Assembly (NCBI GenBank): GCA_022181065.1
Contig: BQMY01000105.1
Location: 1 to 41,867 of the forward strand
DNA length: 41,867 nt
Reading direction: 5' to 3'
Source: Melioribacteraceae bacterium
Lineage (GTDB): Bacteria; Bacteroidota; Ignavibacteria; Ignavibacteriales; Melioribacteraceae
In this document: in pieces, positions 3,222 through 40,500 of the stretch
How positions within the stretch are numbered: position 1 is the first letter of the stretch
Layout of the letters: each line of letters begins with the position of its first letter
Notes under the pieces: generated by a model
Databases searched by the model: none
The model's input: only the letters and a program-made list of their open reading frames with translations
What the model was told of the DNA's origin: nothing
Position numbers and translations under genes: made by a program

Positions 3222-3452
3222 TTTCCTGCCTGTTTTTAAATTTTAGTTCGAAAAATAGTTAAAAGAGATTATCTATACAAACCTTAAAAACTTGCACAAC
3301 GGACAAAAAAAAGTGCATTAAACAAACAGAGGGAGTTTTATTCCGGCAAAATGCAAAAATATCCGTCACCGCTATTCCGGTTGGATTATTTTATTCACGG
3401 GAAGAAAATATGCTATCCTATTACAAGGAGAGCGGTTCGTATAGAAATAAAA

Positions 3453-3477
3453 AAGGGAGGGCGATTAACCCTCCCTT
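3453..3477 (-). terminator. Terminator of the Omp28/TlpA operon
   Basis: The stem GGGAGGG/CCCTCCC (3455-3461 with 3469-3475), extended by two A-T pairs, has a 7-nt loop. On the minus strand a run of seven T residues follows. It lies about 25 bp beyond the stop of the last gene of the leftward operon. Confidence 0.85.
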
Positions 3478-3502
3478 CGGCGTAACCGTAAATTTTATAC
3501 AA

Positions 3503-5035
3503 CTAATAGAGTATAGTTCTCATTTTTAATTCTACACCACGAAATTCAGGTTCGTATCGGCAAACACCACCAATACAAATAGTTCCCGCCTGACGTGAAC
3601 CAACAGCAACAGCAACATCGGTGTGTTCCCATAATTTATATCCTACCTGTACAAAATTCCACATAGTGCGGATAACATTTCCGTCTTCAGGTTCTTTTGT
3701 CAGCATCTCTGAAACTAAACTGATTGACAAATCGGGTGAGCGAAGATATTCCAGCACCAACACATCATCGAAATATTTTTCACCTGTCTGAAGTTGTGTA
3801 GTCTGCTGATGTTCAGCTATCAGCTTGAATGTGTTAGTCGGATCGTGATAATATCTTACTTCCACTATAGGAGTGATTGCTTTCGTAAGAGTATAATATT
3901 CCTCTCCGTAACCTATCGCGAAAATTGTTGTTAACTTTTCAGACCAGCTATGCTGAACATTAAAATACAAATCTTCGTAATATTTTGATGATTCCCTGTT
4001 TAGTCCTCTCTGACGCTGGTAGAAGGAACCCTCGCCAAGTGTGTTTGTTAGACTGTAATTCGCGGTAACAGAAGTATAATCATTAAATGTGTAAGCAGCT
4101 TCGATCTGATAACCCTGCTCATTATTAACATTAAGTTCGGTGGTGTGTCTGTTCAGTAGAAGGTACTGCTGATCACGTTTAACTGCAGGTGGGGTATTAT
4201 AAGCTATCGTCTGATCCTGTGAAGTAAACGCGAAATTATCATATTTCTTATATTCAGCAGTAACACCAAGACCACCAAGATAAAAGTTCAAGTTAGCGTA
4301 AAGCCCGTCACCTACATATTTTTCGCTACCGTTAAAATTATTGTTGCTGATATCATCGTTGAACTTCATTCCGTATTCAGCGTAAAAATCAAAATTCCAT
4401 ATCGAAGGCTGCACACGCAGACCCGCCATTCTTGTTGGAGCTATATTACTATCATCAGGACGGTTAACCGCGAATGTACCACCCGCTTTCAGAAATTTTG
4501 CGAACTTGTACTCAAGGTCGAATGCGTGAAGCACATCTTTACGTTCTGCTGCGAAGTTTTCAGCCATTCCTGTTAAGCCAACGAGTTTCAAGCCGTTATA
4601 ATTAGCCTGAACATTCACACCAAGCAAATTATTATCAATACGAATATTCCTGTCTTCGTAACTTTTAAGTATCATTCCTCTCCCGAGAAGCTGATAAAAG
4701 TTACCCACAGTTATATTCATACCCCTTTTTTTATTGCCGATTTCGGCTTTAAGATATTTGTAAGCAATTTCGGCAAATCTGTCCTTTCCTCTGCTAACGG
4801 CAGCGTTGGGATCGTTCGGCTGGAAAATATCAAATCTGATACCTGATGAAAATATCCCGTATCGGTAATCAAGGTTAAACCAGTTTTCCAGGATTTCGGT
4901 TTCGTTGTCAACATCGTAGGAATATTCCAACTGATTCGACATTCCCATACCGGGAGGTAATTTAATATCACTTTGCGCATGAATAAAACTTGCTGACAGG
5001 ATCAATAAAATTGTGGTAAATAATGTCTTTTTCAT
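3503..5035 (-). CDS. DUF6029-like outer-membrane beta-barrel protein
   Basis: A 510-residue protein that begins with a clear signal peptide (MKKTLFTTILLILSASFIHA). The mature part is rich in alternating hydrophobic and aromatic strands and ends in a tyrosine after a short strand, typical of an outer-membrane barrel. I recognise the DUF6029 family of Bacteroidota from the overall pattern and from the near-C-terminal CxxGxC segment (ICIGGVC). Its function is not known. The frame is open back to a TTG at 5059, touching the upstream stop, but the ATG at 5035 places the signal peptide at the N-terminus and is preferred. It is the last gene of a seven-gene leftward run of thiol proteins and is followed by a terminator, so it may be the outer-membrane partner of that system. 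Confidence 0.7.
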   Translation of the reverse strand: MKKTLFTTILLILSASFIHAQSDIKLPPGMGMSNQLEYSYDVDNETEILENWFNLDYRYGIFSSGIRFDIFQPNDPNAAVSRGKDRFAEIAYKYLKAEIGNKKRGMNITVGNFYQLLGRGMILKSYEDRNIRIDNNLLGVNVQANYNGLKLVGLTGMAENFAAERKDVLHAFDLEYKFAKFLKAGGTFAVNRPDDSNIAPTRMAGLRVQPSIWNFDFYAEYGMKFNDDISNNNFNGSEKYVGDGLYANLNFYLGGLGVTAEYKKYDNFAFTSQDQTIAYNTPPAVKRDQQYLLLNRHTTELNVNNEQGYQIEAAYTFNDYTSVTANYSLTNTLGEGSFYQRQRGLNRESSKYYEDLYFNVQHSWSEKLTTIFAIGYGEEYYTLTKAITPIVEVRYYHDPTNTFKLIAEHQQTTQLQTGEKYFDDVLVLEYLRSPDLSISLVSEMLTKEPEDGNVIRTMWNFVQVGYKLWEHTDVAVAVGSRQAGTICIGGVCRYEPEFRGVELKMRTILY

Positions 5036-5059
5036 ATTTTGCTGTATTTGGGTTATCAA

Positions 5060-6373
5060 TTATTTATTCAGAATCATTTTACCGTGTAAAATTCCAAAAG
5101 AGGAAGAAATTTCATACAGATACAAACCGGAAGGTAGTCCCGCCGCGTTAAAATTAATGATGTTATCTCCGGCGGGTCTGTCAGAATAATTAAACTCTTC
5201 AATCTTTTCTCCGGCAATATTATAGACCGAAAATTTTACATCGCTAACTTCGGGTAATCCAAATTTTATAGTGGTTGATGGATTAAATGGATTAGGGTAA
5301 TTACCAGCAAGTCTGTAATCCGATGGGTTGTTAACTTTTACGGATTTAATACCGAGCACTTCTCTTTTTCCATCGAGATCAACCTGGGTAAGTCTGTAGA
5401 AATATTTGCCGTTGGATTTCGGATTGTCACTAAAACTGTAATAGCTGCTTTCCGATATGGTGCCTGAACCGGGAATGAAGGCGAGTTTTTCATAACTGCT
5501 TCCATCGGTCGATCTCGCGATTTCAAATCCTTTATTGTTCAATTCTGTGGCAGTTGACCACTCTAATGATATAATACCGGAATTATTATAGATATTGAAC
5601 GATTCCAGTTCAACGGGGATAGTTCCATCAATTACATCTACCGATATGGCTTGCTGCACATGTGCTTTCTGAAGCGGGATTCTGTGTTTATAAACAATTA
5701 CAGCAACACGGCAATTTTGCTCATCAAAATCTTCGGATATTGTATATTCACCATTATATGTCAGTTCATTACCTGTGTACCATGTTCCACCTGACCATAT
5801 CTCTTCACCTTGTGCACCGTTCAGCATAACTCTCGCTACATTATTGTGGACGAAATCGTCTCCACCCGGACAAAATTCACTTCCCGCCTGAGGTGAAATG
5901 ATGTTGTCCTCGAGGAGTACCAGACTTATATAATATGTTTCATCCAGGTCTTCGAGGGCGGAAGTAGTAACAGAAACTGATACTTTCCTTTCAGAGACAT
6001 TATACAGAGTAGTCGCTTCTATAGTAACCATAGGCGGAACACTCGACATATCCGTCAATGCTTCCAGCCAATCGATATGAGGCATAATTGAAGAAACACG
6101 GTCAATTATAGCGGCGGGTAAAGCACCAAATCCTAAATCCATCAGGATTTCGTTACCTTCAAATTGTGAAAACGGGTCTGCGCCACCCGAATGGTAAGCG
6201 ATAAAAATAGTATTCGGGAAAAATGGTGCTATATTTTCGTTGATCTCAAGATGCCCGCAAGCACATGATGTGCACCATGTGCCCGTCGCATATTCGAAAA
6301 CATTATTTCGGGAATTCTGACCTGAAAGAACAATCGCTGAAAAAAGTATCAGGAGTACAACAAGGTTTTTCAT
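5060..6373 (-). CDS. Omp28-like secreted thiol protein with T9SS sorting domain
   Basis: A 437-residue exported protein. A signal peptide (residues 1-18) is followed by an Omp28-type, thioredoxin-like domain (about 24-240) with the motif TGTWCTSCACGH, giving C34, C37, C39 and H41. About residues 255-345 form a beta domain (WSTATELNNKGFEIARS) that also occurs in the giant protein at 37506-41816. The C-terminal 85 residues are a type A T9SS sorting domain with NYPNPFNPST, normally cleaved during export. Unlike two paralogues in this operon it lacks the cysteine five residues before the first motif cysteine (alanine instead). It starts 12 bp after the TlpA-like gene. Expected location: cell surface or medium. 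Substrate and partner unknown. Confidence 0.8.
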   Translation of the reverse strand: MKNLVVLLILFSAIVLSGQNSRNNVFEYATGTWCTSCACGHLEINENIAPFFPNTIFIAYHSGGADPFSQFEGNEILMDLGFGALPAAIIDRVSSIMPHIDWLEALTDMSSVPPMVTIEATTLYNVSERKVSVSVTTSALEDLDETYYISLVLLEDNIISPQAGSEFCPGGDDFVHNNVARVMLNGAQGEEIWSGGTWYTGNELTYNGEYTISEDFDEQNCRVAVIVYKHRIPLQKAHVQQAISVDVIDGTIPVELESFNIYNNSGIISLEWSTATELNNKGFEIARSTDGSSYEKLAFIPGSGTISESSYYSFSDNPKSNGKYFYRLTQVDLDGKREVLGIKSVKVNNPSDYRLAGNYPNPFNPSTTIKFGLPEVSDVKFSVYNIAGEKIEEFNYSDRPAGDNIINFNAAGLPSGLYLYEISSSFGILHGKMILNK

Positions 6374-6385
6374 TAAATCTCCTGA

Positions 6386-6862
6386 TTACAACAAGTTTTC
6401 AATTTCTTTTTTCATCTCTATTTCATCACCTTTTTTGTACCCGCTATGCTGATAAACTATGTTGCCATCCTTATCAAGAAGGACAGAATGCGGTACAGTT
6501 TGGGCATAATATTTACGGGCTATTTCGCCATTTGTGTCGAGAAGAACGGTAAAATCGTATCCGTGCGATTTGATGAAAGGCTCAACCTTTGAAACACTTT
6601 TTTCTGAATCAACAGAAATAGCGACAATAGATACTCCCTTCTCGCCCATTTCTTCAATAATTTTATTGTAAGCTTTCATTTCTTCAACACAAGGTTTGCA
6701 CCAGGTCGCCCAGAAGCTCACTATTACGGGTCCGTCACCAATAACATCTGCAAGCTCAACATATTCACCTTCAAGGTCTTCAAGCATAAAATCTGGCGCT
6801 TTTTTGTCCTGAGCAAACATTACAAAAGCAAGAACTGCAAACAAGATTAAAACTTTTTTCAT
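6386..6862 (-). CDS. TlpA-like thiol:disulfide oxidoreductase
   Basis: A 158-residue periplasmic thioredoxin-fold protein. It has a signal peptide (about residues 1-17, ending MFAQ), the active site WATWCKPC (C55, C58), and the cis-proline loop TVPHS (P124), all expected of the TlpA/ResA group. Such proteins usually reduce disulfides in the periplasm, for example in cytochrome c maturation, or repair oxidised proteins. No cytochrome maturation genes are near. It is embedded in the operon of Omp28-like proteins with spacings of 12 bp on either side, so a redox role toward those secreted cysteine proteins is the natural inference. It has no sorting domain and therefore should stay in the periplasm. 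Confidence 0.9.
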   Translation of the reverse strand: MKKVLILFAVLAFVMFAQDKKAPDFMLEDLEGEYVELADVIGDGPVIVSFWATWCKPCVEEMKAYNKIIEEMGEKGVSIVAISVDSEKSVSKVEPFIKSHGYDFTVLLDTNGEIARKYYAQTVPHSVLLDKDGNIVYQHSGYKKGDEIEMKKEIENLL

Positions 6863-8350
6863 TTATTTCTCCAGAATCATTTTTTTCGTTTCGTTAAAGT
6901 CGCCGCTTGAAATGCGGTACAAATAAACACCACTTGTAAAATTGGAAGCATCGAAGCTAACCGAATGACTTCCTGCTTCGAGATGTCCGTCAATTAGTAA
7001 CGCAATTTCCCTGCCAAGAATATCATAGACCGCAAGTTTGGTAAATCCGGCCTCTTTAATGCTGAAATTTATCATGGTAGAAGGATTAAACGGATTAGGA
7101 TAGTTCTGATTTAATCTGTAATTCAGTTCATCCACCATGTTCTCAAACGATGTAATAACAGCGGATGCGCTAACATTTATTGTTTCTGAAAGTTGCGGAT
7201 GATCATGATCTTTTATCACAAGTTCAACACTTCCTGTTCCTGTGTTATTCATCGGGAAGAAATGGAGTGACAACTCACGTGTTTCACCCGGCTGAATTGG
7301 TGAACTCGCGAAATTGGATGTAGTCGAGATACTGTCAAGATCGGGAGGGAAACATACATCAAAGCACAAAGATGAAGTCCAGTCAGCGGGAAGATCATTT
7401 ACAGTTCTAACTATATCCATGGTTACAGGCGCATCTGAAGTATTTTCAATTTCTATATTATAAACTATTTCGCTACCGAGAGTATCTGTCTGTGTGGTAA
7501 AATCACCGGCAATCGCGAATGTGTTGCTTGTGATCGGTTCTTCAGCATGGGCTGTGAGTGTCATTGAATATGAATCATCGGCTGCAAAAGTATTTATCGC
7601 GTTAATGGAAACTTCGGCGGTACCTTCATTTTCGTTTGTGAACACATGTACTGAAAACTCACGTGTTTCATCTGGCTGGATGGGTGAACTACCAAACTCG
7701 GAAGATGTTGTAACGGTGTCAATAAAATCCGGGAAACAAACATCAAGGCATAATGATGAAAACCATCCATCAGGCATTGCATTATTCGCTTTATTAAACT
7801 CAAGCACAAGGGGTACCGGTGAAGTATTGTGAATATCGAACTCAAATACTATTTCCGCGCCGGTTGTGTCAGTCAACTCTGTCTGCTGAGTTTCAAATGT
7901 AAAAGCATGTGCGCCCTGAGCAACTTCGGTAGTAGAATAAAAACTATATATTGAATTATCCTGCGGATCATTCAAATCCATAATTTTTACGTCAACCTGA
8001 CCTGTACCGCTATTTTGAAGAGCAAACACATGAACAGAAAATTCGCGTGTTTCACCAGGTGTTAGCGGACTACTAAGGAAATCGCTTGTTGTCGCGACCG
8101 AATCAATAAAATCCGGGAAACATAGTTCAAAACAGAATGAGGACAGCCATCCGGTCGGAATGTCATTTCCGGTTCTTACAAAAGCCAATGTAAGATCGGA
8201 AGAGGATGTATTGGTCACTTCAACCTGAAATACCATTTCGCTGCCCACGGTATCTATACAGCTCATATTATGAACATCAACGTAAAAACTATTCTGCGCT
8301 AAAGTTGTTCCGGCAAAAATTATTAAAAGTAATACTAAAATCTTCTTCAT
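6863..8350 (-). CDS. Secreted protein with three cysteine-pair repeat domains and T9SS sorting domain
   Basis: A 495-residue protein with signal peptide (about 1-18), three tandem beta-rich repeats (about residues 20-140, 148-268 and 276-396), and a T9SS sorting domain (about 410-495, NYPNPFNPST). Each repeat holds the same centre: W-x-SS-x-C-x3-C-FP, then a stretch ending PGETRE or PDETRE, then H-F or H-V-F. The cysteine pairs are C73/C77, C201/C205 and C329/C333. A fourth copy of the domain sits in the next gene upstream (8400-9836). I do not recognise a named family; the fold looks immunoglobulin-like. Paired cysteines in every repeat, next to a TlpA gene and Omp28-type genes, suggest a redox-active or disulfide-stabilised surface protein. 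Confidence 0.75.
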   Translation of the reverse strand: MKKILVLLLIIFAGTTLAQNSFYVDVHNMSCIDTVGSEMVFQVEVTNTSSSDLTLAFVRTGNDIPTGWLSSFCFELCFPDFIDSVATTSDFLSSPLTPGETREFSVHVFALQNSGTGQVDVKIMDLNDPQDNSIYSFYSTTEVAQGAHAFTFETQQTELTDTTGAEIVFEFDIHNTSPVPLVLEFNKANNAMPDGWFSSLCLDVCFPDFIDTVTTSSEFGSSPIQPDETREFSVHVFTNENEGTAEVSINAINTFAADDSYSMTLTAHAEEPITSNTFAIAGDFTTQTDTLGSEIVYNIEIENTSDAPVTMDIVRTVNDLPADWTSSLCFDVCFPPDLDSISTTSNFASSPIQPGETRELSLHFFPMNNTGTGSVELVIKDHDHPQLSETINVSASAVITSFENMVDELNYRLNQNYPNPFNPSTMINFSIKEAGFTKLAVYDILGREIALLIDGHLEAGSHSVSFDASNFTSGVYLYRISSGDFNETKKMILEK

Positions 8351-8399
8351 GTTACACCTGGTAAATTTCCAAAATCAAATATTGTTTAATTATTAACAA

Positions 8400-9836
8400 T
8401 TATTTAAGTACCGACATTTTATTCGAGATCGTATTTCCTGTTGTGGTCAGTTTGTACACATAAACACCGGAGGAGAGATGTTCAGCGTTAAAACTAACTG
8501 AATGTGTACCGGCTGTGGTATAACCGCTGTAAACTTCAGCTACTTTCTGACCAAGCAGATTAAATACAGCAATTTCGGCATTACCCGCTTCCGGTATTTC
8601 AAAATTTATTGTTGTTTCAGGATTGAACGGATTTGGATAATTTTGCCCTAGTGAAAATCCGGCAATATTTACATCATCCTCAACAGAAACGAGCTTGATT
8701 GCGGTCGCAGTAACCGTAATAGTATCAACCTTATTACTATTTTCATGCTCTTTTATAGCCAGCTTAACTGTGCCGGTGCCTTCATTTTCTATTGAAAAAA
8801 AGTGAAGGGAAAGTTCTCTAGTTTCGCCCGGAGCAATGGGAGAACTCGCGAACATAGATGTTGTGGAGATCGAGTCAACATCGGGCGGGAAACAAACATC
8901 AAAGCACAATGATGAAGTCCAGCTATCAGGTAAATCATTCATTGTACGAATAATATCCATTGTAATTGTATCCTGCGCGGTGTTTTCAATTTCAACGTAA
9001 AATACCATTTCAGCGCCGAGTGTGTCGCTAAGCTCGGTGTTTTCATAACTTACAGAAAAGTGATCAGGCTCGCGGAGTTTATATTGCTCACCCTGCTGAA
9101 TTTCCGCGACATTTAGCGGAGAAGCGTTTTCATATACAAAAGCTACTATATCACAATTCATATCAATATAATTTTCCGATACGATCGTGCTTACTTCAAC
9201 GGTAATGGTGTCACCAGCTGCCCATACTTCACCATTATTCAGTGTATCGCCCAGAGCGCCATTTATCATATCTCTTACAACGTGGTCGTGGATATAATTT
9301 GAGCCGCCTGTGCAGCTTCCGTTACCGGTCTGAGCATAAACCAATCCGTTTTCTAGAAGCAGAACATTGAGGTAATAGTCGCCCGTAAGTTCTTCCAACG
9401 CGACAATATCAACAGTCATATTTAATTCGCGTGTTGCCGGATTGTAATCTAAATTGGAATTGATATCAACAGTTGCGGGCTGGTTCTTCTGATTTATCAT
9501 TCTTGCCGGCCACTGGTTCCTGCTGACCGGAGCAATAGTGCGATCTACAGTACCGCTTGGATATGAAGTCAATCCGAGCATACTCATCACTTCATTACCG
9601 TTAAAATTTTTCCAGGGATCTGATCCACCGCCGTGATAGGCTATCACAATGGCGTTTGGAACGAGTACATATACCTGATTTTCAATTACATCATGCCCGC
9701 AGGGACACCATTGGCACCAGGTTCCGGTACAAAATTCGAGTACGGGATTACGTGTTTGGGCATGTAAATCGGAGTATTGGCTGTTTGCCGAAAAAAATAA
9801 TACTACTACAAAAAAAAGTGTTTTGAAAAACTTCAT
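8400..9836 (-). CDS. Omp28-like secreted thiol protein fused to a cysteine-pair domain
   Basis: This 478-residue protein combines the two themes of the operon. After a signal peptide (about 1-27) comes an Omp28-type thioredoxin-like domain with EFCTGTWCQWCPCGH, giving C36, C41, C44, C46 and H48. About residues 258-380 form one copy of the W-x-SS-x-C-x3-C-FP domain (C311/C315), which is present three times in the next gene. The end is a T9SS sorting domain (about 395-478, NYPNPFNPET). The fusion ties the function of the repeat domain to that of the Omp28 domain. It lies 49 bp upstream of the three-repeat gene on the same strand, with no terminator seen between them. Confidence 0.8.
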   Translation of the reverse strand: MKFFKTLFFVVVLFFSANSQYSDLHAQTRNPVLEFCTGTWCQWCPCGHDVIENQVYVLVPNAIVIAYHGGGSDPWKNFNGNEVMSMLGLTSYPSGTVDRTIAPVSRNQWPARMINQKNQPATVDINSNLDYNPATRELNMTVDIVALEELTGDYYLNVLLLENGLVYAQTGNGSCTGGSNYIHDHVVRDMINGALGDTLNNGEVWAAGDTITVEVSTIVSENYIDMNCDIVAFVYENASPLNVAEIQQGEQYKLREPDHFSVSYENTELSDTLGAEMVFYVEIENTAQDTITMDIIRTMNDLPDSWTSSLCFDVCFPPDVDSISTTSMFASSPIAPGETRELSLHFFSIENEGTGTVKLAIKEHENSNKVDTITVTATAIKLVSVEDDVNIAGFSLGQNYPNPFNPETTINFEIPEAGNAEIAVFNLLGQKVAEVYSGYTTAGTHSVSFNAEHLSSGVYVYKLTTTGNTISNKMSVLK

Positions 9837-9908
9837 ATCTCCCCTTATTACGCGTACTACTTTGGATGAAAAAATATCGGGCGGGATTCATTTCCCACCC
9901 TGTATAAA

Positions 9909-11735
9909 CTATTTAAGAACTGACATTTTTTTACTAACGCTGAATTCACCCGCTGTAAGTTTATAAATATAAACACCGGATGACAATTTACCCGCGTCGA
10001 AATTAACTTCATGTACACCTGCATCCATTGTGCCATTATACAATTCGGTTACTTTCTGACCAAGAAGGTCATATACGCTCACGTTTACTTTTGCCATTTC
10101 AGGAATTTCAAATTTGATTTTTGTTTCCGGGTTGAACGGATTTGGATAATTCTGGTGTAATACAAATTCAGATGGAATTGTTACAGAGCTTACCGAGAAT
10201 GATCCGCCTGATTTAAGAATATAAGGTTCATTCGCTTTTATTGCTGCTTCTTCCCCTGCTGACTTGATCATCAAATCTGTACCGTTTGCGCGGATAGTAA
10301 GCGGATATTCCATTCCGGCAACATCAACATAATTGATATTGTTAAGCGACTCTACATATCTGCCCGAAGCAAATCTTACATCTATCGCGCCCTGTGGCGG
10401 AGCCGGTGGCATTTCGTATTTGTTTAGATCAACTGTCTGGTTAGTCAGATATAATTTTGCTGTTTTGGAATTAGCATCTGTTACAGTAATAAAAGGCCAT
10501 TTTTCATTAGCGGTAACAACATTTTCTTCATTACCATTTTTGGCTGTACCGGAGTTAAAATACATACTTCCGGCAGCGGTTGATTTAACCCAATAACCTT
10601 TACCCGGTTTGAGCATGGCGGTTGCCTGATAAAGTTCATCAAAACCAAAATATGATGATCCAACAATATCGGCGGGATCAGTTGTAATATCTACAATAGC
10701 TACAGTTGAACTGAACGGACCGATAAGATTCCAACCCGCGTTAAGACTTACAGGTTCTGTTGGTTCACTACCTTCAATATTAAGCGCTTCAAGTTCAGAG
10801 AATTTTGCCCAGTATCCTTTACCATTCTCAATTGTTGATACAGGGAAGTATCCGTTATCGAATTCATAAATATCTGAAATCGCGCTCTGGAAAATCGCCG
10901 AAGTACTCATATCACTTGCTTCTTTTGGAGCGGAAACTAGGTTCCATCCTTCATTAACAACAACATTAAACGAGTTGCTTCCAACAAGAGGATATTTCTC
11001 AGCCTGCTGAATTTCACTTTGTGCGAAAGGCGCGTTCTCTCTGTAAACCATAGCAACGACTTCGCAGTTACCATCAACAAAATCGTTAGAGATATAGTAA
11101 TCTGCTACTGAAGAATAAGTTTCACCGGTTGACCAGGAAACACCATTATTTAGCGAAACACCTTTTGCGCCATTTATCATGGCACGCACTACATGATCAT
11201 GCACGTAATTACTAGTTCCACCTGTTTGCGGGTAAACAAGTTTATCTTCCATAAGAATGAGAGAAACGAAATAATCACCTTCGAGGTCTTCAAGGGCTGT
11301 AACCGAGGCAATCATGTTCAACTGACGCGTAACAGGATCGTAAGATTTCAACAATTCAATTTCAACAGTAGGCGGGATATTTTTACGAGCATTCATCCGG
11401 GTTACCCATTCACCACGGCTGACAGGCGCAGATGTTCTGTCCGCAATTCCGGTTGGATACGCTGAAAAACCGAGATAAGTTCTGATCGCGCTTCCGTAAA
11501 AGTTGGCGTACGGGTCTGAAGAACCACCATGATAAGCTATAATGATGGCATTAGGCATTGCAGGTAAAATATCGTTTTCTATTATAACATGTCCCTGCGG
11601 GCAATAAACACACCATGTTCCGGTACAAAATTCGAGAACCGGATTTCTGGTTTGAGCATTTACATCACTCTGTGAAAACGCTCCGGCAAACATTATTAAA
11701 AAAAACAGGATAGACAAAGTTTTGGCTATCTTCAT
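9909..11735 (-). CDS. Omp28-like secreted thiol protein with GWNL-type domains and T9SS sorting domain
   Basis: A 608-residue exported protein with a signal peptide (about 1-27) and an Omp28-type domain with EFCTGTWCVYCPQGH (C37, C42, C45, H49). A region near residues 255-395 contains two GWNL units (EGWNLVSAPK and AGWNLIGPF) and two GYW units (KGYWAKF and KGYWVKS). The sorting domain covers about residues 525-608. The GWNL/GYW region recurs in the giant proteins at 32910-37187 and 37506-41816. Its start is supported by a strong GGAGG site just upstream of the ATG at 11735, so it may be translated well. Its N-terminal 35 residues closely parallel those of the 8400-9836 protein, indicating gene duplication within the operon. 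Confidence 0.8.
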   Translation of the reverse strand: MKIAKTLSILFFLIMFAGAFSQSDVNAQTRNPVLEFCTGTWCVYCPQGHVIIENDILPAMPNAIIIAYHGGSSDPYANFYGSAIRTYLGFSAYPTGIADRTSAPVSRGEWVTRMNARKNIPPTVEIELLKSYDPVTRQLNMIASVTALEDLEGDYFVSLILMEDKLVYPQTGGTSNYVHDHVVRAMINGAKGVSLNNGVSWSTGETYSSVADYYISNDFVDGNCEVVAMVYRENAPFAQSEIQQAEKYPLVGSNSFNVVVNEGWNLVSAPKEASDMSTSAIFQSAISDIYEFDNGYFPVSTIENGKGYWAKFSELEALNIEGSEPTEPVSLNAGWNLIGPFSSTVAIVDITTDPADIVGSSYFGFDELYQATAMLKPGKGYWVKSTAAGSMYFNSGTAKNGNEENVVTANEKWPFITVTDANSKTAKLYLTNQTVDLNKYEMPPAPPQGAIDVRFASGRYVESLNNINYVDVAGMEYPLTIRANGTDLMIKSAGEEAAIKANEPYILKSGGSFSVSSVTIPSEFVLHQNYPNPFNPETKIKFEIPEMAKVNVSVYDLLGQKVTELYNGTMDAGVHEVNFDAGKLSSGVYIYKLTAGEFSVSKKMSVLK

Positions 11736-11757
11736 GAGGACCTCCGATTAAATTAAT

Positions 11758-12732
11758 TTAATGGTTTGATCCGGCCTGGTAAATCTGCTTTGTGGAACTG
11801 TTCTGAACAAAGGCGACTACTTTTAATTTTGAAGTATCCCAGGCACCGTCAACCGCCTGCTCAAAATTGAATGTATAGATGCCGCTTTGGGAAATATTTC
11901 CAAGAGATTCACCATTATTCGAGGGAAGAACAGCACGCATTACATCATAGAATTCGGATTCTCCGTTGGGGGCGGAGTACTGAATTTCTGTTTCTACAAT
12001 GGCTGCGTACAATACGGAATTTGAATAATCTACACCGGATATATCAGGTATTTCCAGTTGTATATTTGTTTTGTAATTACTTCCAACTACATCACCGGCA
12101 ACATGAATTTCAAATGGAGCCGCGATGGTTAATTGTTGTTCTATGTTAGTTTTAATATCATCTTTATCGGTTGGAACGGGTTTAACTGTACCATCGAGAA
12201 TTACTGTTGGCGCAAAAAGTACATTGTAAAAACTCCGTCTGAAATCGCAATTGGAACTTGCCGCAAGATAAAAAGGATCATTCGGACCCGGAAAGTTTGT
12301 GGGGAATTTAACCGATAATAACTGATCACCAAACTCTCCCTTTAATTCCTCAATGTATTGGTTGGAAACTACACACGGAGCGCAGCTGGTGTTTGCGAAA
12401 TCTTCCAGCAAAACTACTTTTTGAATAGTTACAATCGACATGTCAATATTTACAGTTAATGGTGCCGTTTCTGTAACTGTAATGGTTTGCGGGGAAGCCG
12501 TGTAATTATCCTTTTCAAGTGAAATAACATAACTACCTACCGCCAGATTAATTGAGTCGGGAGTGTACAGATTTGTGAAAATGTCATCGATAAATATCTT
12601 CGCGCTATCAATATTAGATGTTATCACAACCTTCTGAGTTACAATATTTCCGGCAGGGTCAGTAGGAGGATTTGTTTCACAGGCGTAAATTAAGGATAAT
12701 AAGACAAAAGCAGCGTATTTAAGGAGTTTCAT
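11758..12732 (-). CDS. PEGA and Omp28-like lipoprotein
   Basis: A 324-residue lipoprotein. The N-terminus MKLLKYAAFVLLSLIYAC ends in a lipobox with C18 as the acylated residue. The frame is open further upstream to 12798, but this ATG at 12732 gives a proper lipoprotein signal. Residues about 32-98 resemble a PEGA domain (SAKIFIDD, AVGSYVISLEKDNY). The rest is an Omp28-type thioredoxin-like domain with C117 and C120 (NTSCAPC). It has no T9SS sorting domain, so it should be anchored in a membrane rather than released. It is the first gene of the seven-gene leftward run, only 22 bp before the next gene, which makes it a plausible membrane-tethered partner of the secreted paralogues. Confidence 0.75.
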   Translation of the reverse strand: MKLLKYAAFVLLSLIYACETNPPTDPAGNIVTQKVVITSNIDSAKIFIDDIFTNLYTPDSINLAVGSYVISLEKDNYTASPQTITVTETAPLTVNIDMSIVTIQKVVLLEDFANTSCAPCVVSNQYIEELKGEFGDQLLSVKFPTNFPGPNDPFYLAASSNCDFRRSFYNVLFAPTVILDGTVKPVPTDKDDIKTNIEQQLTIAAPFEIHVAGDVVGSNYKTNIQLEIPDISGVDYSNSVLYAAIVETEIQYSAPNGESEFYDVMRAVLPSNNGESLGNISQSGIYTFNFEQAVDGAWDTSKLKVVAFVQNSSTKQIYQAGSNH

Positions 12733-32909: not shown

Positions 32910-35900
32910 ATGTACAAAAAAAATCCCCATTTTTATTCTCCTTTTAACAAGATTTTCACCTTTTTTATCTTGTTGATGATGGTATCCGGCGCGAATTTAT
33001 TCGCCCAGATTAGCGAAAAAGGCACTCCTAAAAGTTTTGAGAATTCACTCGAAGGTATTGTCCCTACAGTTTATATGCAGGATGTTGATCTCGACCGTTA
33101 TCTTGCCGAAGATCAGGAAGATGCTGACGATAAAGATATTCCATTTCGTTTTGGCGCGCAGATCGACGTAGATTTTTCAATGACCAATTCCGGTATTTGG
33201 TCTGATTTACCGGATGGCGGAAGAGTATGGCGACTCAGCATCAAATCAGAAGGCGCATACTCCCTGAATTTGCTTTATGACAATTTTTATATGCCGCAAG
33301 GCGCGCAATTTTTCCTTTATAACCAGGATAAAAGCTCTGTTCTTGGTGCTTTTACATCACAGAACAACAAAGAACATGGAAAGTTTTCAACCGGTCTTAC
33401 CGCCGGTGATGAAGTAACACTTGAATATTACGAACCGGCAAATGTTTTCGGACAGGGTGTAATTGAAATCTCACGGGTTGTACACGCCTACCGTGATATT
33501 ATGAACCACATCACGCATGAAGGTTTCGGAAGTTCGGGAAGTTGTAACAACAATGTTAACTGTCCCGAATCTGAAGGCTGGGAAAACCAGATTCGTTCTG
33601 TAGCCATGATTCTAACAGGGGGTGGTTCAAGAGTTTGTTCCGGCTTTATGGTAAATAACGTACGCCAGGATCTTACTCCTTATTTCATGACCGCTAATCA
33701 CTGTCTTGGTGGTAATGACTCATGGATTATCATGTTCAAGTACCAAAGTCCGAGTTGCGAAAATATTGACGGACCTACAAACTTCACAGTTCAGGGTACT
33801 GACCTGTTGGCGAGCAATTCTTCTTCGGATTTTGCTCTATTATTGTTAAATGAATCACCACCGGAAGATTATGAAGTTCATTATGCCGGCTGGAATGCTG
33901 TTGACGAAGCATCAACAAATTCTGTTGGTATTCATCATCCGTCAGGTGATATTAAAAAAATCAGCTGGGATAATGATCCCGCTACTTCAAGTGATTATGA
34001 TCCATCACCATATCTTCCAAATTCTCACTGGGAAGTTACTGCGTGGGACGATGGTACAACCGAACCCGGTTCTTCAGGTTCACCTCTGTTTGACCAGAAT
34101 CATCGTGTCACAGGTCAGCTTCATGGCGGTTGGGCTTCCTGTACCTCAATCACAGAAGATTATTATGGTAAATTTTCAATGTCATGGGATTATGGTTCCA
34201 CTCCTTCAACACGTTTGAAAGATTGGCTTGACCCTGATAATACAGGTACTTTGGTACTTGACGGATGGGATCCTACAATTGGCGAACCCGATTTTATCCC
34301 CCCAACTCCAATAGTTGATCTTGTTATTGATGATGTAACTTCAAGCGAAGTTATGATATCATGGACTGCCCCGTATGATACTTCATATGGTGGTGTTAGA
34401 GCTTATGATATTCGTTATTCAACTACTGCCATTACTGATACTAATGATTTTTACAACGGTACAATGGTTGATAACGCGCCTGTTCCGGCAGATTCAGGTG
34501 AAACTCAGAGTTTTACAATTGGTGGTCTTGAATTTGCTACTACATATTATATAGCTATTCGTTCGAGGGACATGTTTGACAACTGGTCTGAACTTTCCAA
34601 CGTTGTTATGGACGCAACTTATGACGCACCGGAAATTTCTGTAACTCCTGCTTCAGTACATGTTGACCTTAACCCGGGTGGTTCAGCTACCGAAAATGTG
34701 AATGTCGCCAACGTATCACAAGGTAACTCCACACTCGATTATATGATTGAGCTGGCGAATAATACATTCCCGAATACAGACGCTGTAAAAGTAAGACTAA
34801 TACAGAAAAATGAAACAGTTTCTACCGAACAAGCAGTAAAAGGAAATGATATAGCCAAAAAAGGTAGCTCTGTAAAGGGCGCAGGCGGTCCTGATATGTT
34901 CGGTTACGAATGGATTGACAGTGATGAAGCAGGTGGACCCGAATATATCTGGGAAGATATCTCAACTACCGGAACCGCTGTAACAGACTGGATCCCAACA
35001 GGTACTTTCAATGAACTAGATGAAGGTGTTGCCGGACCATTCGATCTCGGATTTAATTTCAAGTTTTATGGTATTGAGCAGACTGACGTATACTTCGGAA
35101 CGAACGGCTTTGTTACTTTCGAAAATATTACGATGAACACCTATACAAATGATGAGATACCTGATTCCGATATGCCAAACAGTATTATTGCTTCTGTATG
35201 GGATGATATGGATGGCGGAAATGGTGGAACCGTATATTATCAGCAAATGGGCAATAAATTTGTGATCCAGTACGACAACTGGGGTGAATATTTTGGAAGT
35301 GGTACCTTCACTTATCAGGTTGTGCTTTACTCATCGGGTAAAATAATGCTTTATTATAAATCACTTACCGGTGATTTGAATTCTGCAACCGTCGGAATTG
35401 AAAATGCTGATGGTTCTGATGGATTACAGATGGTTTATAATTCCGACTATCTTCATGATGAACTTGCTGTGAAAATTTCGGCTGAACCAGACTGGCTGCA
35501 GCTTGGTAATATGGAGGGTCGTCTTTATAACGGAAACAGCGTGGATGTTGAATTATCATTCAGCGACGATGATTATCCGCAAGGCGATTATTCAATGGAT
35601 GTGATCATTACATCAAATGATCCTGATATGAGTGAAATTGTTGTACCTGTTACCATGACACTTGGTGAAGGTGGCGGCGCGACTGATTGGTCCGCTGACA
35701 TCTCCGTTTATGACGCCGGTGGTATGGAAAACGGACTCATTATTACTTTTGGTCAGGCACAAGGCGCGACTGACGGACTGGATGCCGGATTTAACGAATT
35801 TGAATTACCTCCGGTACCTCCTGCAGGTGTATTCGATTCAAGATTCATACTACCAAATGATATACCAAGTTTAACTGATATTCGCGCTCTCGAGGGTGAA

Positions 35901-37187
35901 TCTGCTACATGGGAAATGACATTCCAGCCCGGTGGAACCGGATATCCCGTTACACTGGCATGGGATTCAAACGATCTTCCTGATGGTTCGTGGAGATTGC
36001 AGGATCCATTCGGCGGTGTAATAGTTGACGTAAATATGAAAGACCAGTCGATGGTTGAAATTTCAAACACATCAGTTACCGCTTTGAATATAGTTTATTC
36101 ATCACAAATGATGATTGAAATGAGCATGGCTTCCGGCTGGAATCTAATGTCGATTCCTCTTGAAATGGATGATATGGCTGTTTCCCAGAACTTCCCCGAA
36201 GCTACTTCACCTGCATACGCATACGAAAACGGTTATGTAACCGCTGATGACTTTGCTATGGGTGTTGGTTACTGGTTGAAATTCGACGCTCCTGTTTCTC
36301 ATGAAATGTGGGGTCTCCCATATTATGAACCAGTTGCTGTAGCAGACGGATGGAATCTTATCGCGTTTTATCAGGACGCAGTTCCTGTGACGAACGTTAC
36401 AAGTAATCCTGCGGGAATAGTTAGCTCGATGTTCTTTGGTTTCGACCAGGGTTACTATACCGCGGATAACCTCGAAGCGGGAAAAGCATATTGGGTTAAA
36501 ACAAGTGAAGCCGGCGAATTGAGTTATTCAGGTGCTGCTCCTAAAAAGGGTGAAACAACACTGCCTTCACTTAACAAAGAAGGTTGGAAAGCTATCACTA
36601 TCCGTGATGCAGATGGTCGTACATCAACCTTGTACGCATCTGACGATGAGCCGGGAATTTTTGCTGAACTTCCACCGGCACCACCTGCAGGCGTGTTTGA
36701 TGTAAGATTTAAATCTGGTAAAATGGCTGAGAAGCTAACAGCGGGTCAGAGTATCTCAATTTCAGGCGCTACATATCCTGTAGTTATCAGCGCTGATTTG
36801 GATGTGAGCCTGTTTGCCGCTGGTGAGAACGCTACACTCAAAGCGGGTGATTCATATACACTTACGCAGGATGTATCATCTGTTGAAATCAGCACAGTTG
36901 AAATTCCGGATGAATTTGCTCTTGAGCAGAATTATCCCAACCCGTTCAACCCGAGTACAAAGATCAAGTTTGCTGTCCCTGTAGATAGTAAGGTAACAGT
37001 AACACTTTACAATATGTTGGGACAGAAAGTAAAAGAGATAGTATCACAGAATTACAGTGTAGGTCTTCATGAAGTTGAGCTAAACGCAAGTGAACTTGCT
37101 TCAGGTATGTACATTTATAACATTTCCGCGCAAGGCGTTGATGGCAACAATTTTGTTGACACAAAGAAGATGATGCTTATGAAGTAA
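32910..37187 (+). CDS. Giant lysyl-endopeptidase-like protease with T9SS sorting domain
   Basis: A 1425-residue secreted protein. A longer-than-usual signal sequence (about 1-33) is followed by a trypsin-like serine protease domain. Its triad is visible: H264 in MTANHC, D307 in SSSDFALLLL, and S389 in EPGSSGSPLF, a pattern typical of Lys-C-type lysyl endopeptidases. A fibronectin-III domain follows (about 470-560), then an Ig-like stretch, a domain with TYTNDEIPDSDMPNSIIASV (about 670-820), a further beta region, a GWNL/GYW region (from about 1076) and the sorting domain (from about 1335, NYPNPFNPST). It is likely an extracellular endopeptidase; specificity for lysine is not proven. It is followed by a hairpin and a terminator. 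Confidence 0.85.
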   Translation: MYKKNPHFYSPFNKIFTFFILLMMVSGANLFAQISEKGTPKSFENSLEGIVPTVYMQDVDLDRYLAEDQEDADDKDIPFRFGAQIDVDFSMTNSGIWSDLPDGGRVWRLSIKSEGAYSLNLLYDNFYMPQGAQFFLYNQDKSSVLGAFTSQNNKEHGKFSTGLTAGDEVTLEYYEPANVFGQGVIEISRVVHAYRDIMNHITHEGFGSSGSCNNNVNCPESEGWENQIRSVAMILTGGGSRVCSGFMVNNVRQDLTPYFMTANHCLGGNDSWIIMFKYQSPSCENIDGPTNFTVQGTDLLASNSSSDFALLLLNESPPEDYEVHYAGWNAVDEASTNSVGIHHPSGDIKKISWDNDPATSSDYDPSPYLPNSHWEVTAWDDGTTEPGSSGSPLFDQNHRVTGQLHGGWASCTSITEDYYGKFSMSWDYGSTPSTRLKDWLDPDNTGTLVLDGWDPTIGEPDFIPPTPIVDLVIDDVTSSEVMISWTAPYDTSYGGVRAYDIRYSTTAITDTNDFYNGTMVDNAPVPADSGETQSFTIGGLEFATTYYIAIRSRDMFDNWSELSNVVMDATYDAPEISVTPASVHVDLNPGGSATENVNVANVSQGNSTLDYMIELANNTFPNTDAVKVRLIQKNETVSTEQAVKGNDIAKKGSSVKGAGGPDMFGYEWIDSDEAGGPEYIWEDISTTGTAVTDWIPTGTFNELDEGVAGPFDLGFNFKFYGIEQTDVYFGTNGFVTFENITMNTYTNDEIPDSDMPNSIIASVWDDMDGGNGGTVYYQQMGNKFVIQYDNWGEYFGSGTFTYQVVLYSSGKIMLYYKSLTGDLNSATVGIENADGSDGLQMVYNSDYLHDELAVKISAEPDWLQLGNMEGRLYNGNSVDVELSFSDDDYPQGDYSMDVIITSNDPDMSEIVVPVTMTLGEGGGATDWSADISVYDAGGMENGLIITFGQAQGATDGLDAGFNEFELPPVPPAGVFDSRFILPNDIPSLTDIRALEGESATWEMTFQPGGTGYPVTLAWDSNDLPDGSWRLQDPFGGVIVDVNMKDQSMVEISNTSVTALNIVYSSQMMIEMSMASGWNLMSIPLEMDDMAVSQNFPEATSPAYAYENGYVTADDFAMGVGYWLKFDAPVSHEMWGLPYYEPVAVADGWNLIAFYQDAVPVTNVTSNPAGIVSSMFFGFDQGYYTADNLEAGKAYWVKTSEAGELSYSGAAPKKGETTLPSLNKEGWKAITIRDADGRTSTLYASDDEPGIFAELPPAPPAGVFDVRFKSGKMAEKLTAGQSISISGATYPVVISADLDVSLFAAGENATLKAGDSYTLTQDVSSVEISTVEIPDEFALEQNYPNPFNPSTKIKFAVPVDSKVTVTLYNMLGQKVKEIVSQNYSVGLHEVELNASELASGMYIYNISAQGVDGNNFVDTKKMMLMK

Positions 37188-37505: not shown

Positions 37506-40500
37506 ATGAGTAAAAAAATTCTATTTCTAATTCTTCTTCCAATGTTGCTTTTTGCCCAAATCGCTCAAAAAGCACCGGTCAAAATGGAAGAACTCCCCTC
37601 AGGAACAGAGGGTAAATACACAAAAGTAGCGGGCGTACCTTTCACTGAGGCAAACTACATGCCTGTCGATTTAATGCCGAACGTTTACGGTCCGGCAATC
37701 GGGGCGTTAAATCCTGCCGCTTATGATCCCGCGACTGGTACAGCCATGATAGTTCACAGAGGTGATATCAGTTATGCGGCCGGATCGGGTGAATTATGGT
37801 ATAATTACTCAACCGATAACGGCGTTACATGGAATCGGTCAGCAACAAGTGTTAATGGGATAAATAGTCAAATATTGGGCAGATACCCTTCAGCAGCAAT
37901 TTTGAATCCTACCGGATCATCAAACATAGCTGATGTTATGGGTGTTTTTGCTTGGCCTGAATTAAATGCTGATCCGGTTCAATTCCAACACATTGGTTTT
38001 GCAGGTGATTTGGGACTGGATGGAGTTGATTTTGCCGGAATAACTAATAATGGAAGTCCAACCAGTACACCATTTTACAGTTCACAAGTGCCTGTATGGA
38101 ATCATATAGATTTTAACAGCAACGGATATGTGATGTGGGCTGCGGATAATCAGGATAACGCCGGAATAACCATCTGGACCACAACAGATTATTCAGATAT
38201 TCAAATGTATGAAGCTTTCCCATCTTCCGATTTTGGTGATAATGGAAATATCACTCTTGGCGGTGTTTCTCACAATGGTGTAGCTTATTATGGAGTAATG
38301 GGGTCATTTGCCGAAGGTTTCGTTGGAGATGGAGGCTGGGGAATCGGTTTTTCCAAGTCATCCAACAATGGTGCTTCATGGGAAGCCTGGAATGTGGTTG
38401 ACTGGACACAAATTTCCGCAACAGCTGAATTTACCGGACTTTGGGATTACAAGAAGAACGATGGATTTATTAGCTATCAGGGTGATATAAATGTTGATAA
38501 AGATGGCTATGTTCATATTGTTACCGGTTTAACCAAAATCGATACTAATGTTTCATTCGAGTATGGTGAAAATGCTCTCGTAGAATTTTTTGAAACTGCA
38601 AATGGATGGGACGCTAAAATAATTCTTGAAGGTGATTTGCTTACAGACTCTACTTTTACTCAGCATGAAGGAGTAGCCCTCGGACAAATGGGACCATCTG
38701 TTTATCTCGCTTTTGATGAATCAAGAGAGTTTATGGTTGCCCAGTGGGTTACACATGATGGCAACGCACCATATTTCTGTGACATTTATATGGCTTACAG
38801 AGGTTTGAATGATACGGAATGGAGTGCTCCGATGAATCTTACAAATACTCCAAACGAAAATGAAAATAGCAGTCACCTTGCACCATCTCTTGCAACAGTT
38901 GGCAATGGACATTATAATGCATTCAGCTACTATTTTTATCCTGAGGGTTTTACCGGCGGATTCGATCCTCCCTTAACAGACCCAACTGTGATTTATAATG
39001 CCGCAGTGGATATATTTGCCACACCATCAAACGTTACACCTATTGGTGATGCCATAATTGATGCCAACAATGATTTTATACCGGATAATTTAGGTCAGGA
39101 ATTTACAATCCAGGGTGTAGTGCTTTCAACCAATATACAGGCATCTTCTGACAGATTTTCTTACCATATTGCCGATGAAACAGGTGGTCTGATCATCACT
39201 AAAGGAAGTGAACCGGGTGGTGGTCCTTCATATAATTTTGGTGATAAAATAATCGTAACAGGTACATTGGATCAGTATGCAGGCGCAACCCAGCTTGCGC
39301 TTGACGCTGATCAGCTTGCGGGTATTCAGCTTGTTTCCACCGGTAATGAAGTGACCCCGATGGTTCTCACAATTGAGGATTATTTGGCTGATGCTGAAGG
39401 CTATCAGGGAATGTACATTAAAGTTGAGAATGTTAATAAATCACCTGACTCAGATCCATGGCCTGAACCGGGCAGCTGGGCAAACTTGACTATTGAGCAG
39501 AATGGTTCAACATTATTGCTAAGAATTGATAATGATACAGAGTTGGACGAATCTCCCGAACCAATGTGGCCTGCGGATATTTCAGGCGTTGCTGGACAGT
39601 TTACATTTAGTTCTCCTCCTAATGACGGGTATCAACTTGCTCCTCATTTTATCAGTGAATTTGTGCCCGCAGGTGTAACACCGATTGGTGAAGCTATAAT
39701 CGACGCAAATAACGATTTTATACCTGATAATCTCGGAATGGAGTTTACCATCCAGGGCGTTGTACTTTCTACAAATATTCAGGCATCTTCCGACAGATTT
39801 TCTTACCACATTGCGGATGAAACCGGTGGTCTGGTAATTACCAAAGGAAGTGAACCGGGTGGTGGCCCTTCATATAATTTTGGTGATAAACTTATTGTTA
39901 CAGGTACGTTGGATCAATACTCCGGAGCGACACAACTTGCGCTTGACGCAGATCAGCTCGCTGGTATTCAACTGGTTTCCACCAGTAATGAAGTTGTTCC
40001 TATGATACTTACGATAGAGGAGTACTTGGCTAATGCTGAAGGTTATCAGGGTATGTATATCAAAGTAGAAAACGTAAACAAAACTCCCGACTCTGATCCA
40101 TGGCCTGAACCGGGTAGCTGGTCAAACTTAACTATTGAACAGAACGGCTATACAGTAGTATTAAGAATTGATAATGATACTGAATTGGATGAGTCACCCG
40201 AGCCATCCTGGCCCTCAAATATATCAGGTGTTGCCGGACAGTTTACATTCAGTTCTCCTCCTAATGACGGGTATCAGATAGCACCACACTATATAACTGA
40301 ATTTGAACCTGCAGGTTTTTCTTCTCAAATAGCAGTAGATGCCGGTTGGAATATTTTATCTGTACCATTGGTTGAAGATGATATGACAGTTTCCGGTTTA
40401 TTCTCTTCTTTGGCTATATCCAATGCATTCGCTTTCGACAACGGCTACCAAACAGCTGATGAACTTGAAGTTGGTCAGGGCTATTGGGTGAAATTCGACG

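Follow-up and report, generated by a model that had tools for sequence, protein, structure and literature searches.

Seven consecutive genes on the minus strand of contig BQMY01000105.1, from a Melioribacteraceae bacterium (assembly GCA_022181065.1), encode four proteins with an Omp28-type thioredoxin-fold domain, a protein of three cysteine-bearing repeats, a TlpA-like thiol-disulfide oxidoreductase and a DUF6029 outer-membrane beta-barrel. The whole stretch analysed, 41,867 nucleotides long, is referred to here as the window. Why would a bacterium encode so many thiol proteins, four of them predicted cargo of the type IX secretion system (T9SS), beside a barrel of the outer membrane? The original prediction, made from the sequence alone, proposed a dedicated redox route or a surface thiol relay. 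We found that TlpA, the DUF6029 barrel and Omp28-type proteins (as lipoprotein, T9SS cargo or both) are encoded together across genomes, and that a PorA-type protein joins them less often. By the evidence of gene order the gene set is real and widely conserved, and no name or description of it was found in the open-licence papers searched; its families are known and their combination is new. The genomic comparison suggests a surface thiol system at this locus, which is probably a relay that crosses the outer membrane and is tied to T9SS signalling of the PorA type. Taken in full, as an expanded copy of a module conserved in the Fibrobacterota-Chlorobiota-Bacteroidota (FCB) group that handles thiols at or across the outer membrane, with both the relay mechanism and the coupling to PorA, this explanation falls in our judgement just short of an even chance.

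The barrel and its neighbours across genomes

A scan of named genome contigs with the barrel alignment recovered at least 564 relatives, of which the best 80 loci were used, a choice that favours relatives of the window; locus counts below refer to these best 80 of at least 564 unless another draw is named. They include records from Ignavibacteria, Kapaibacterium, KSB1, Eisenbacteria and Zixibacteria together with many Bacteroidota, the closest relatives of the window barrel being Ignavibacteria-type. Directly upstream of the barrel (position -1) and on the same strand, a TlpA gene was found in 64 of 75 loci, against 0 of 315 genes at a distance of at least 6, and an Omp28 gene directly downstream (+1, same strand) in 50 of 77 loci, against 3 of the 315 distant genes. 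Loci without a called gene at a position were left uncounted there, which gives denominators of 75, 77 and 70 of the 80; the calls are mechanical picks of open reading frames (ORFs), whose starts and a few strands may err. In 67 loci the gene calls covered two upstream positions and one downstream position; among these, TlpA is accompanied by Omp28 on both sides in 16, by a downstream Omp28 in 22 and by an upstream one in 12, while TlpA stands alone in 9, a downstream Omp28 alone in 5 and neither in 3. A draw by phylum gave 39 barrel loci, a count made apart from the window and from 16 weaker loci analysed separately with family f26; 25 of them have TlpA immediately upstream, 1 has it a further gene away (the arrangement of the window), 5 have it next to the barrel in divergent orientation and 8 have none.

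The association also holds between genomes. Genomes were split by us into those with a strong DUF6029 match and those with a weak one, the latter meaning family f26 and genome G183. Omp28 occurs in 37 of 38 strong, 0 of 17 weak and 3 of 143 DUF6029-free genomes; a second draw of 247 genomes, read from two tables, gave 178/181 with DUF6029 and 9/66 without. The Fisher tests made on these associations ignore phylogeny, and the draws overlap (L061 and L085, and L048 and L137, look like the same contigs; the second genome draw shares several genomes with the first). The search suggested along with the original prediction, which asked whether other FCB genomes keep TlpA next to Omp28-type genes and DUF6029, was thus strongly positive. 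Because this neighbourhood is conserved, the proposed dedicated thiol system or surface thiol relay is well supported as a genetic unit; its possible mechanism is weighed below.

The N-terminal domain of PorA (PorA-N), found in genes 3 and 4 of the window, follows a similar distribution. By a profile built mainly near barrels, it is present in 26 of the 38 strong-DUF6029 genomes (within 8 kb of the barrel in 18 of these 26), in 0/17 weak and in 5/143 without DUF6029, or 5 of the 160 others. The PorV family, a mark of T9SS, is present in 173 of 198 genomes, so PorA-type proteins would follow DUF6029 and not T9SS as such. We regard this as a lead, not a proof, because the profile was built near barrels and because PorA is called an essential T9SS component (PMC8754138). 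Genomes G049, G057, G174 and G186 carry a PorA-N-like domain with no DUF6029 or Omp28 match in the genome scans.

Cysteine-bearing domains of the window and their variants

The cysteine pairs are retained in nearly all these proteins: in 80/80 barrels, 37/37 PorA-N domains and 92/98 Omp28 proteins (as CxxC). The cysteine-pair repeat originally described in gene 4 is indeed there, but its identity as PorA-N, and the copy in gene 3, had been missed. A PorA-N profile that contained no window sequence matched gene 3 once (E 3.8e-28, with CFDVC at residues 311-315) and gene 4 three times (E 6.4e-30, 4.1e-29 and 1.4e-27). Compared with the PDB, the 37-domain profile has the PorA structure 6kjk as its sole significant match (E 1.3e-6; next E 0.39); the alignment retains the PorA cysteine pair (LCfgqC), and no column other than C53 and C58 is invariant among the 37 domains. 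In seven relatives, no Pfam or NCBIfam model except those of the T9SS tail covers the domain significantly, and window gene 4 scores 27.9 bits with DUF1573 against a cut-off of 26.1. The AlphaFold2 model of gene 3 (predicted local distance difference test, pLDDT, 93.1) resembles HBP35 (5y1a) over residues 24-256 (Z 25.5, root-mean-square deviation, rmsd, 2.4, 220 residues), PorA 6kjk in its PorA-N part (Z 12.8, rmsd 2.6, 116 aligned) and the C-terminal domain (CTD) of PorU (6za2) in its C-terminal part (Z 10.6). By sequence and predicted fold, then, the repeats of genes 3 and 4 are PorA-N domains with cysteine pair and CTD, and gene 3 combines the predicted 5y1a fold, CxxC and T9SS tail of an HBP35-like protein. 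A Foldseek search with the whole model of gene 3 was dominated by multi-Ig proteins and was left unused in favour of this part-wise comparison. Nothing was concluded from a comparison of gene 3 with viral contigs (26 loci), where the matches listed start at residue 302 or later and fall mostly on the T9SS tail. A selenoprotein match of gene 4 (OS_HP2, E 0.007) was dropped, since seven relatives gave no such match at E 0.1.

All four Omp28 domains of the operon exceed the Pfam cut-off of PF11551 (34.9 bits), with 51.9, 68.6, 96.6 and 66.7 bits for genes 1, 2, 3 and 6; with NCBIfam lipoprot_Omp28 (NF033782) they score 47.9, 81.3, 96.4 and 70.9 bits and do not reach the curated cut-off of 150. 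Gene 1 adds a PEGA match (Pfam, 26.4 bits) and, by eye, a lipobox (SLIYA-C); its SCAPC was read from the sequence. Genes 2, 3, 4 and 6 carry a T9SS type A sorting domain over the cut-off of TIGR04183 or PF18962 (gene 2 with 42.9 bits for Por_Secre_tail and 46.2 for TIGR04183; genes 4 and 6 with 44.1 and 37.0 bits for Por_Secre_tail) and are predicted T9SS type A cargo, so that three of the four Omp28 domains are tailed. The surface end of the system is multiplied in the window, with four Omp28 and four PorA-N domains, one pair of them fused in gene 3. Gene 5 is over the Pfam cut-off for AhpC-TSA (101.8 bits) and Redoxin (92.3 bits) and misses every curated NCBIfam cut-off that it was compared with (ResA 109.8/170, StoA 78.1/210, TlpA 67/230 and DsbE 62.2/123.15 bits); from its hydrophobic N-terminus or signal peptide and WCKPC, both seen by eye, it is predicted to be a soluble periplasmic protein. 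Selenocysteine was rejected for the two Omp28 matches flagged in the first genome draw, as the TGA of G031 and the TAA of G041 fall on the last codons of called genes (L061 gene 5 and L039 gene 4) and are therefore terminal stops. The genome of the window has two more Omp28 genes (G000:C111:21285-21716, L201, at a contig end; G000:C121:30046-30513, L202), which have no TlpA, barrel or PorA-N neighbour in the stretches read.

Gene 7 encodes 510 residues and matches PF19494 with 217.1 bits (cut-off 27). Its AlphaFold2 model (mean pLDDT 93.9, predicted TM-score 0.87) has 24 long strands by our count, with short turns on one side and the long loops mostly on the opposite one; with the C-terminus taken as periplasmic, these long loops would be extracellular. 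A CxxGxC hairpin, CIGGVC at residues 487-492, precedes the last strand and would lie in the last predicted extracellular loop, L12 (482-497), which with L3 (114-136) is the most conserved segment of the barrel (3.32 and 3.30 bits, mean 2.22). The corresponding C..[GN].C is found in the final 60 residues of all 80 barrel relatives, and both cysteines are invariant in a 39-sequence and a 69-sequence alignment, the latter with 16 invariant columns. The 69-sequence alignment (A3) combines the window with 68 of the 80 loci, omitting L089, L091 and L092 (split or truncated) and L099, L101, L111, L113, L117, L129, L130, L140 and L153; alignment A1 omits L051, whose barrel frame is broken near the end. 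Among fold neighbours, the Occ porin 3szv (Z 19.4, 305 aligned) and the usher 3ohn (Z 19.3, 370 aligned, rmsd 4.4) tie, ushers FimD/PapC spanning more of the model than Occ porins, and the alginate exporter AlgE is also among them. A sequence comparison of the barrel with the PDB found no relative, and we claim no kinship from the fold neighbours, which are large barrels in general.

Sorting signals differ with the position of the gene. T9SS tails are found in 30/44 upstream Omp28, 0/50 downstream Omp28 and 34/38 PorA-N genes, and a lipobox-like motif in 33 of the 50 downstream Omp28 genes; the phylum draw contrasts with this, as several of its downstream Omp28 proteins have a T9SS-like tail motif (e.g. 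L064-L066, L068-L070, L072 and L074). The fullest layout comprises a PorA-type protein (often divergent), a T9SS-exported thioredoxin, periplasmic TlpA, the barrel and a thioredoxin lipoprotein. All five parts occur in Brumimicrobium mesophilum JCM 14063 (L135), where the tail of the Omp28 cargo was seen by eye; another cultured species that carries the barrel locus is Hymenobacter terricola (L105). Fusion of Omp28 to a cysteine-bearing PorA-N domain recurs in L080 and in the KSB1 locus L092. Family f26 retains barrel and TlpA (CKPC in 15 f26 loci), and TlpA-type proteins replace Omp28: in its 16-locus set, 14 loci have a downstream protein of 172-196 aa (CPHC/CSHC) and 13 have one of 265-274 aa with a T9SS tail, L185, L186 and L197 being without one of the two and L198, of another family, without both. 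In L075, of f26, the small protein has a lipobox by eye and the tailed one is Redoxin plus Por_Secre_tail. That f26 has another thioredoxin family at the same place is the strongest indirect hint that the chemistry of thioredoxins is what counts.

Some variants were seen in passing. The Zixibacteria locus L094 (CP070839.1) has PEGA-like repeats before a TlpA-type domain in place of Omp28 (by eye and TlpA profile), and its PorA-N-like domain ends, by eye, in a membrane-anchor-like C-terminus that replaces the T9SS tail. Eight loci, mostly of rumen Bacteroidales (L103, L104, L111, L113, L117, L130, L140 and L151), have a DCxxC protein of 482-518 aa two genes upstream of the barrel, with a TlpA profile match in 7 of the 8. 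In L084 (Ignavibacterium-type), positions 5550-7451 encode a T9SS-tailed protein that carries five CxxCH heme motifs and is followed directly by TlpA and the DUF6029 barrel.

Known relatives and a relay across the outer membrane

For the open-licence papers searched, the original statement that no system of this composition is known to have been described holds, although HBP35, PorA and Omp28 all have studied relatives in Porphyromonas gingivalis. HBP35 (PG0616, 5y1a) is like gene 3 in its fold over residues 24-256, its CxxC and its T9SS tail; unlike gene 3, which adds a PorA-N domain, it has been described alone and with a heme role. It is exported by the T9SS to the surface, has a thioredoxin activity that requires its two cysteines, binds heme and aids growth at low heme; its authors suggested upkeep of the surface redox status, though the oxidative-stress result was not positive, and the available text makes no mention of an operon, Omp28 or TlpA (PMC2907840). 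A 2026 preprint on an HBP35-like protein of Muribaculaceae proposes that it protects the surface and handles iron (PMC13404670). Omp28 and TlpA were named together in two papers, which by their titles concern H. pylori and Brucella. A list of iron-regulated genes that contains T9SS and TlpA genes lacks Omp28 and HBP35 in the part available, and was not used (PMC10434189).

PorA (PGN_0123/PG2172, 6kjk) shares the domain and the cysteine pair with the repeats of genes 3 and 4, and its layout of one Ig-like domain plus CTD matches that of relatives of about 240 aa; it differs from the window in that gene 4 has three domains and in that a signal relay is known only for PorA. This 246-residue surface protein relays a surface signal to PorXY-SigP, its loss lowers SigP and T9SS components, its N-terminal domain resembles the FimH lectin domain and it is present on the surface of mutants of the T9SS machinery; other factors should link surface PorA to inner-membrane PorY, and the words "disulfide" and "redox" are absent from the available text (PMC7712824). 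A porA deletion is known to have low SigP and low PorK/L/M. PorA is also a major partner of Sov-PorV (PMC8754138). The Omp28 lipoprotein PG2173 adjoins PorA PG2172 by locus number (PMC9722745). Its structure (2r2c) resembles the window copies in sequence (E 1.6e-6) and fold (Z 12.0), whereas these copies are under the lipoprot_Omp28 cut-off and three of the four are T9SS-tailed. The P. gingivalis genes near PG2173 may be the barrel and TlpA of this species.

Gene 5 belongs to the fold family of the TlpA, ResA and CcmG oxidoreductases and has their WCxxC, but it is under every NCBIfam cut-off matched and its neighbours are outer-membrane and surface proteins. Partners of the named TlpA/ResA/CcmG proteins are cytochrome c or oxidase subunits. 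The pneumococcal proteins Etrx1 and Etrx2 belong to a Gram-positive host, with no outer membrane to cross and no known barrel. They are alike in idea, as surface-exposed thioredoxin-family lipoproteins with a redox partner (PMC3914529). In the available parts of these relatives' papers, no barrel together with TlpA is mentioned.

In a relay, electrons from the cytoplasm would pass by a DsbD-type inner-membrane protein (two DsbD_TM genes are present in the 4.9 Mb host genome) to soluble TlpA, and from TlpA through or at the large barrel with its CxxGxC hairpin to surface thioredoxin domains, namely the Omp28 lipoprotein and the HBP35-like T9SS cargo. These domains would in turn control the redox state of the PorA-type cysteine pair and perhaps of other surface disulfides. 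With such a module the cell could reduce its own surface or read out the redox state there and, since PorA serves the T9SS of P. gingivalis as a surface signal relay, tie this to T9SS activity. The reverse direction, in which surface oxidation is sensed inward, is equally compatible with the anatomy. A stricter version, with DUF6029 as conduit across the outer membrane for thiol electrons or small folded thiol proteins and PorA reporting the redox state to the T9SS, we consider rather unlikely; if true, it would amount to a trans-outer-membrane thiol relay and would supply the connection that is missing between PorA at the surface and PorY in the inner membrane.

Several points weigh against a relay coupled to PorA. 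The barrel hairpin is predicted to be extracellular and the access of TlpA to it is unexplained, which is the weakest step; a lumen of 24 strands may be wide enough for TlpA to meet the hairpin. An adjacent TlpA is missing from 8 of the 39 loci of the phylum draw, TlpA at -1 from 11/75 and Omp28 at +1 from 27/77, and a PorA-type gene lies within five genes in only 34 of the 80 loci. Five genomes have PorA-N without DUF6029, and 12 of 38 have DUF6029 without PorA-N; as the TlpA and PorA-N profiles come mainly from near-barrel genes, distant types may be undercounted and the contrasts somewhat inflated. The CPHC motif, as in f26, is DsbA-like, so an oxidising direction is possible. HBP35 (PG0616) is numbered away from PorA (PG2172), and in the available text of their literature neither is tied to a barrel or TlpA. 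Since HBP35 binds heme and its oxidative-stress result was not positive, a heme role is possible (PMC2907840), and the description of PorA as an essential T9SS component of P. gingivalis (PMC8754138) also counts here.

We place high weight on a thiol module and see about even odds between a relay across the membrane and three rivals taken together, namely maturation, transport and export of PorA. The leading rival, which has perhaps a quarter of our belief, is that TlpA acts in the periplasm, where it maintains or corrects the cysteines of the barrel, the PorA-type and the Omp28 proteins before these are inserted or exported by the T9SS, the surface proteins then having a task unrelated to electron transfer across the membrane. 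In its favour are the position of TlpA immediately before the barrel, the cysteine pairs of the partners and the T9SS-tailed protein of L084, which precedes TlpA and barrel with its five CxxCH motifs. CxxCH proteins are the classical client type of ResA/CcmG-like proteins. Maturation leaves unexplained why surface-bound thioredoxin-fold proteins with intact CxxC belong to the same module and why other thioredoxins stand in f26. We find it improbable that DUF6029 is instead a transport barrel for polysaccharide, heme or metal, with the thioredoxin proteins as accessory surface receptors or protectors, even with AlgE and the Occ porins among its fold neighbours and with HBP35 binding heme and aiding low-heme growth (PMC2907840): the invariant features include a cysteine hairpin and the recurrent neighbours are thioredoxins. 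A role in polysaccharide secretion was raised for DUF6029 from the HHpred similarity of Wzi-like barrels, in the one paper that names DUF6029 among the open-licence papers searched, but a section heading of that paper speaks of 18-stranded barrels (PMC9603273), against the 24 strands predicted here.

The usher likeness allows another, slightly less probable reading: DUF6029 would itself be a protein export pore, by which PorA and other small folded proteins of Ig-like fold reach the surface independently of the Sov/SprA channel, their cysteine pair being handled by the thioredoxins. Ushers are 24-stranded and pass Ig-like pilins. FimD/PapC are indeed among the best fold neighbours of the barrel model (3ohn, Z 19.3, 370 residues), sharing its 24-stranded size and overall fold, and PorA-N resembles the FimH lectin domain (PMC7712824); but PorA is bound to PorV-Sov and is expected to exit via Sov (PMC8754138). 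The DUF6029 protein is moreover barrel-sized only, its 510 aa leaving little room for the periplasmic domains of ushers, no sequence relation was found in the PDB, and alikeness of barrel size and fold shows no function. A stable neighbourhood without joint function, in which genes hitch-hike near a conserved locus, would account for loci without all the parts, and is very improbable in view of the families being correlated across genomes as well as adjacent, of the fusions and of the other thioredoxins at the same place.

The gene set offers a connection, open to experimental test, from surface thioredoxins and DUF6029 to the T9SS signal protein PorA. HBP35 has a measured activity and, in the available part of its literature, no known electron source; one conserved set now joins an HBP35-like thioredoxin, a PorA-type protein and DUF6029 with a periplasmic reductase, and each question can be addressed experimentally. 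From the distribution given above, PorA-type proteins also seem to be tied more closely to this module than to the T9SS at large.

Layout of the operon in the window

The order of seven same-strand genes given in the original prediction was confirmed by ORFs and Pfam on the minus strand from 12732 to 3503.

Features of the seven-gene locus, in order of transcription
Feature	Position	Strand	Description and basis
Gene 1	11758..12732	-	Predicted lipoprotein: PEGA + Omp28 thioredoxin-fold domain, motif SCAPC; Pfam
Gene 2	9909..11735	-	Omp28 domain (WCVYC) + T9SS type A sorting tail; Pfam, TIGR04183
Internal hairpin, terminator- or attenuator-like	9879..9900	-	Gap between genes 2 and 3; pattern scan, -15.8 kcal/mol
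Gene 3	8400..9836	-	Fusion of HBP35/Omp28-type thioredoxin (WCQWC), one PorA-N-like domain and T9SS tail
Gene 4	6863..8350	-	Three tandem PorA-N-like domains (CFELC, CLDVC, CFDVC) + T9SS tail
Gene 5	6386..6862	-	TlpA/ResA-like thiol-disulfide oxidoreductase (WCKPC)
Gene 6	5060..6373	-	Omp28 domain (WCTSC) + T9SS tail
Gene 7	3503..5035 (alternative TTG start 5059)	-	DUF6029 outer-membrane beta-barrel
Terminal hairpin, terminator-like	3452..3478	-	3' of gene 7; pattern scan, -19.0 kcal/mol

In transcription order the intergenic gaps are 22, 72, 49, 0, 12 and 0-24 bp, with genes 4 and 5 abutting; the range had been put at 12-72 bp, of which the upper end stands and the lower becomes 0. The terminator placed at 3453 corresponds to the terminal hairpin. 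The claim that there is no internal terminator falls with the second hairpin, which is GC-rich, is followed by GATATTTTTT and lies in the 72-bp gap just past the stop of gene 2. Terminator-like sites in the pattern scan number 23 in 16 kb against 13.5 expected, and this internal hairpin may be an attenuator or chance. A single transcription of the seven genes is plausible from the layout, though unproven.

Elsewhere in the window, a 253-aa ORF at 297-1058, near the downstream end of the operon, resembles by eye a transposase fragment, and two ORFs of 1425 and 1436 aa (32910-37187 and 37506-41816) have, again by eye, near-identical T9SS-like tails.

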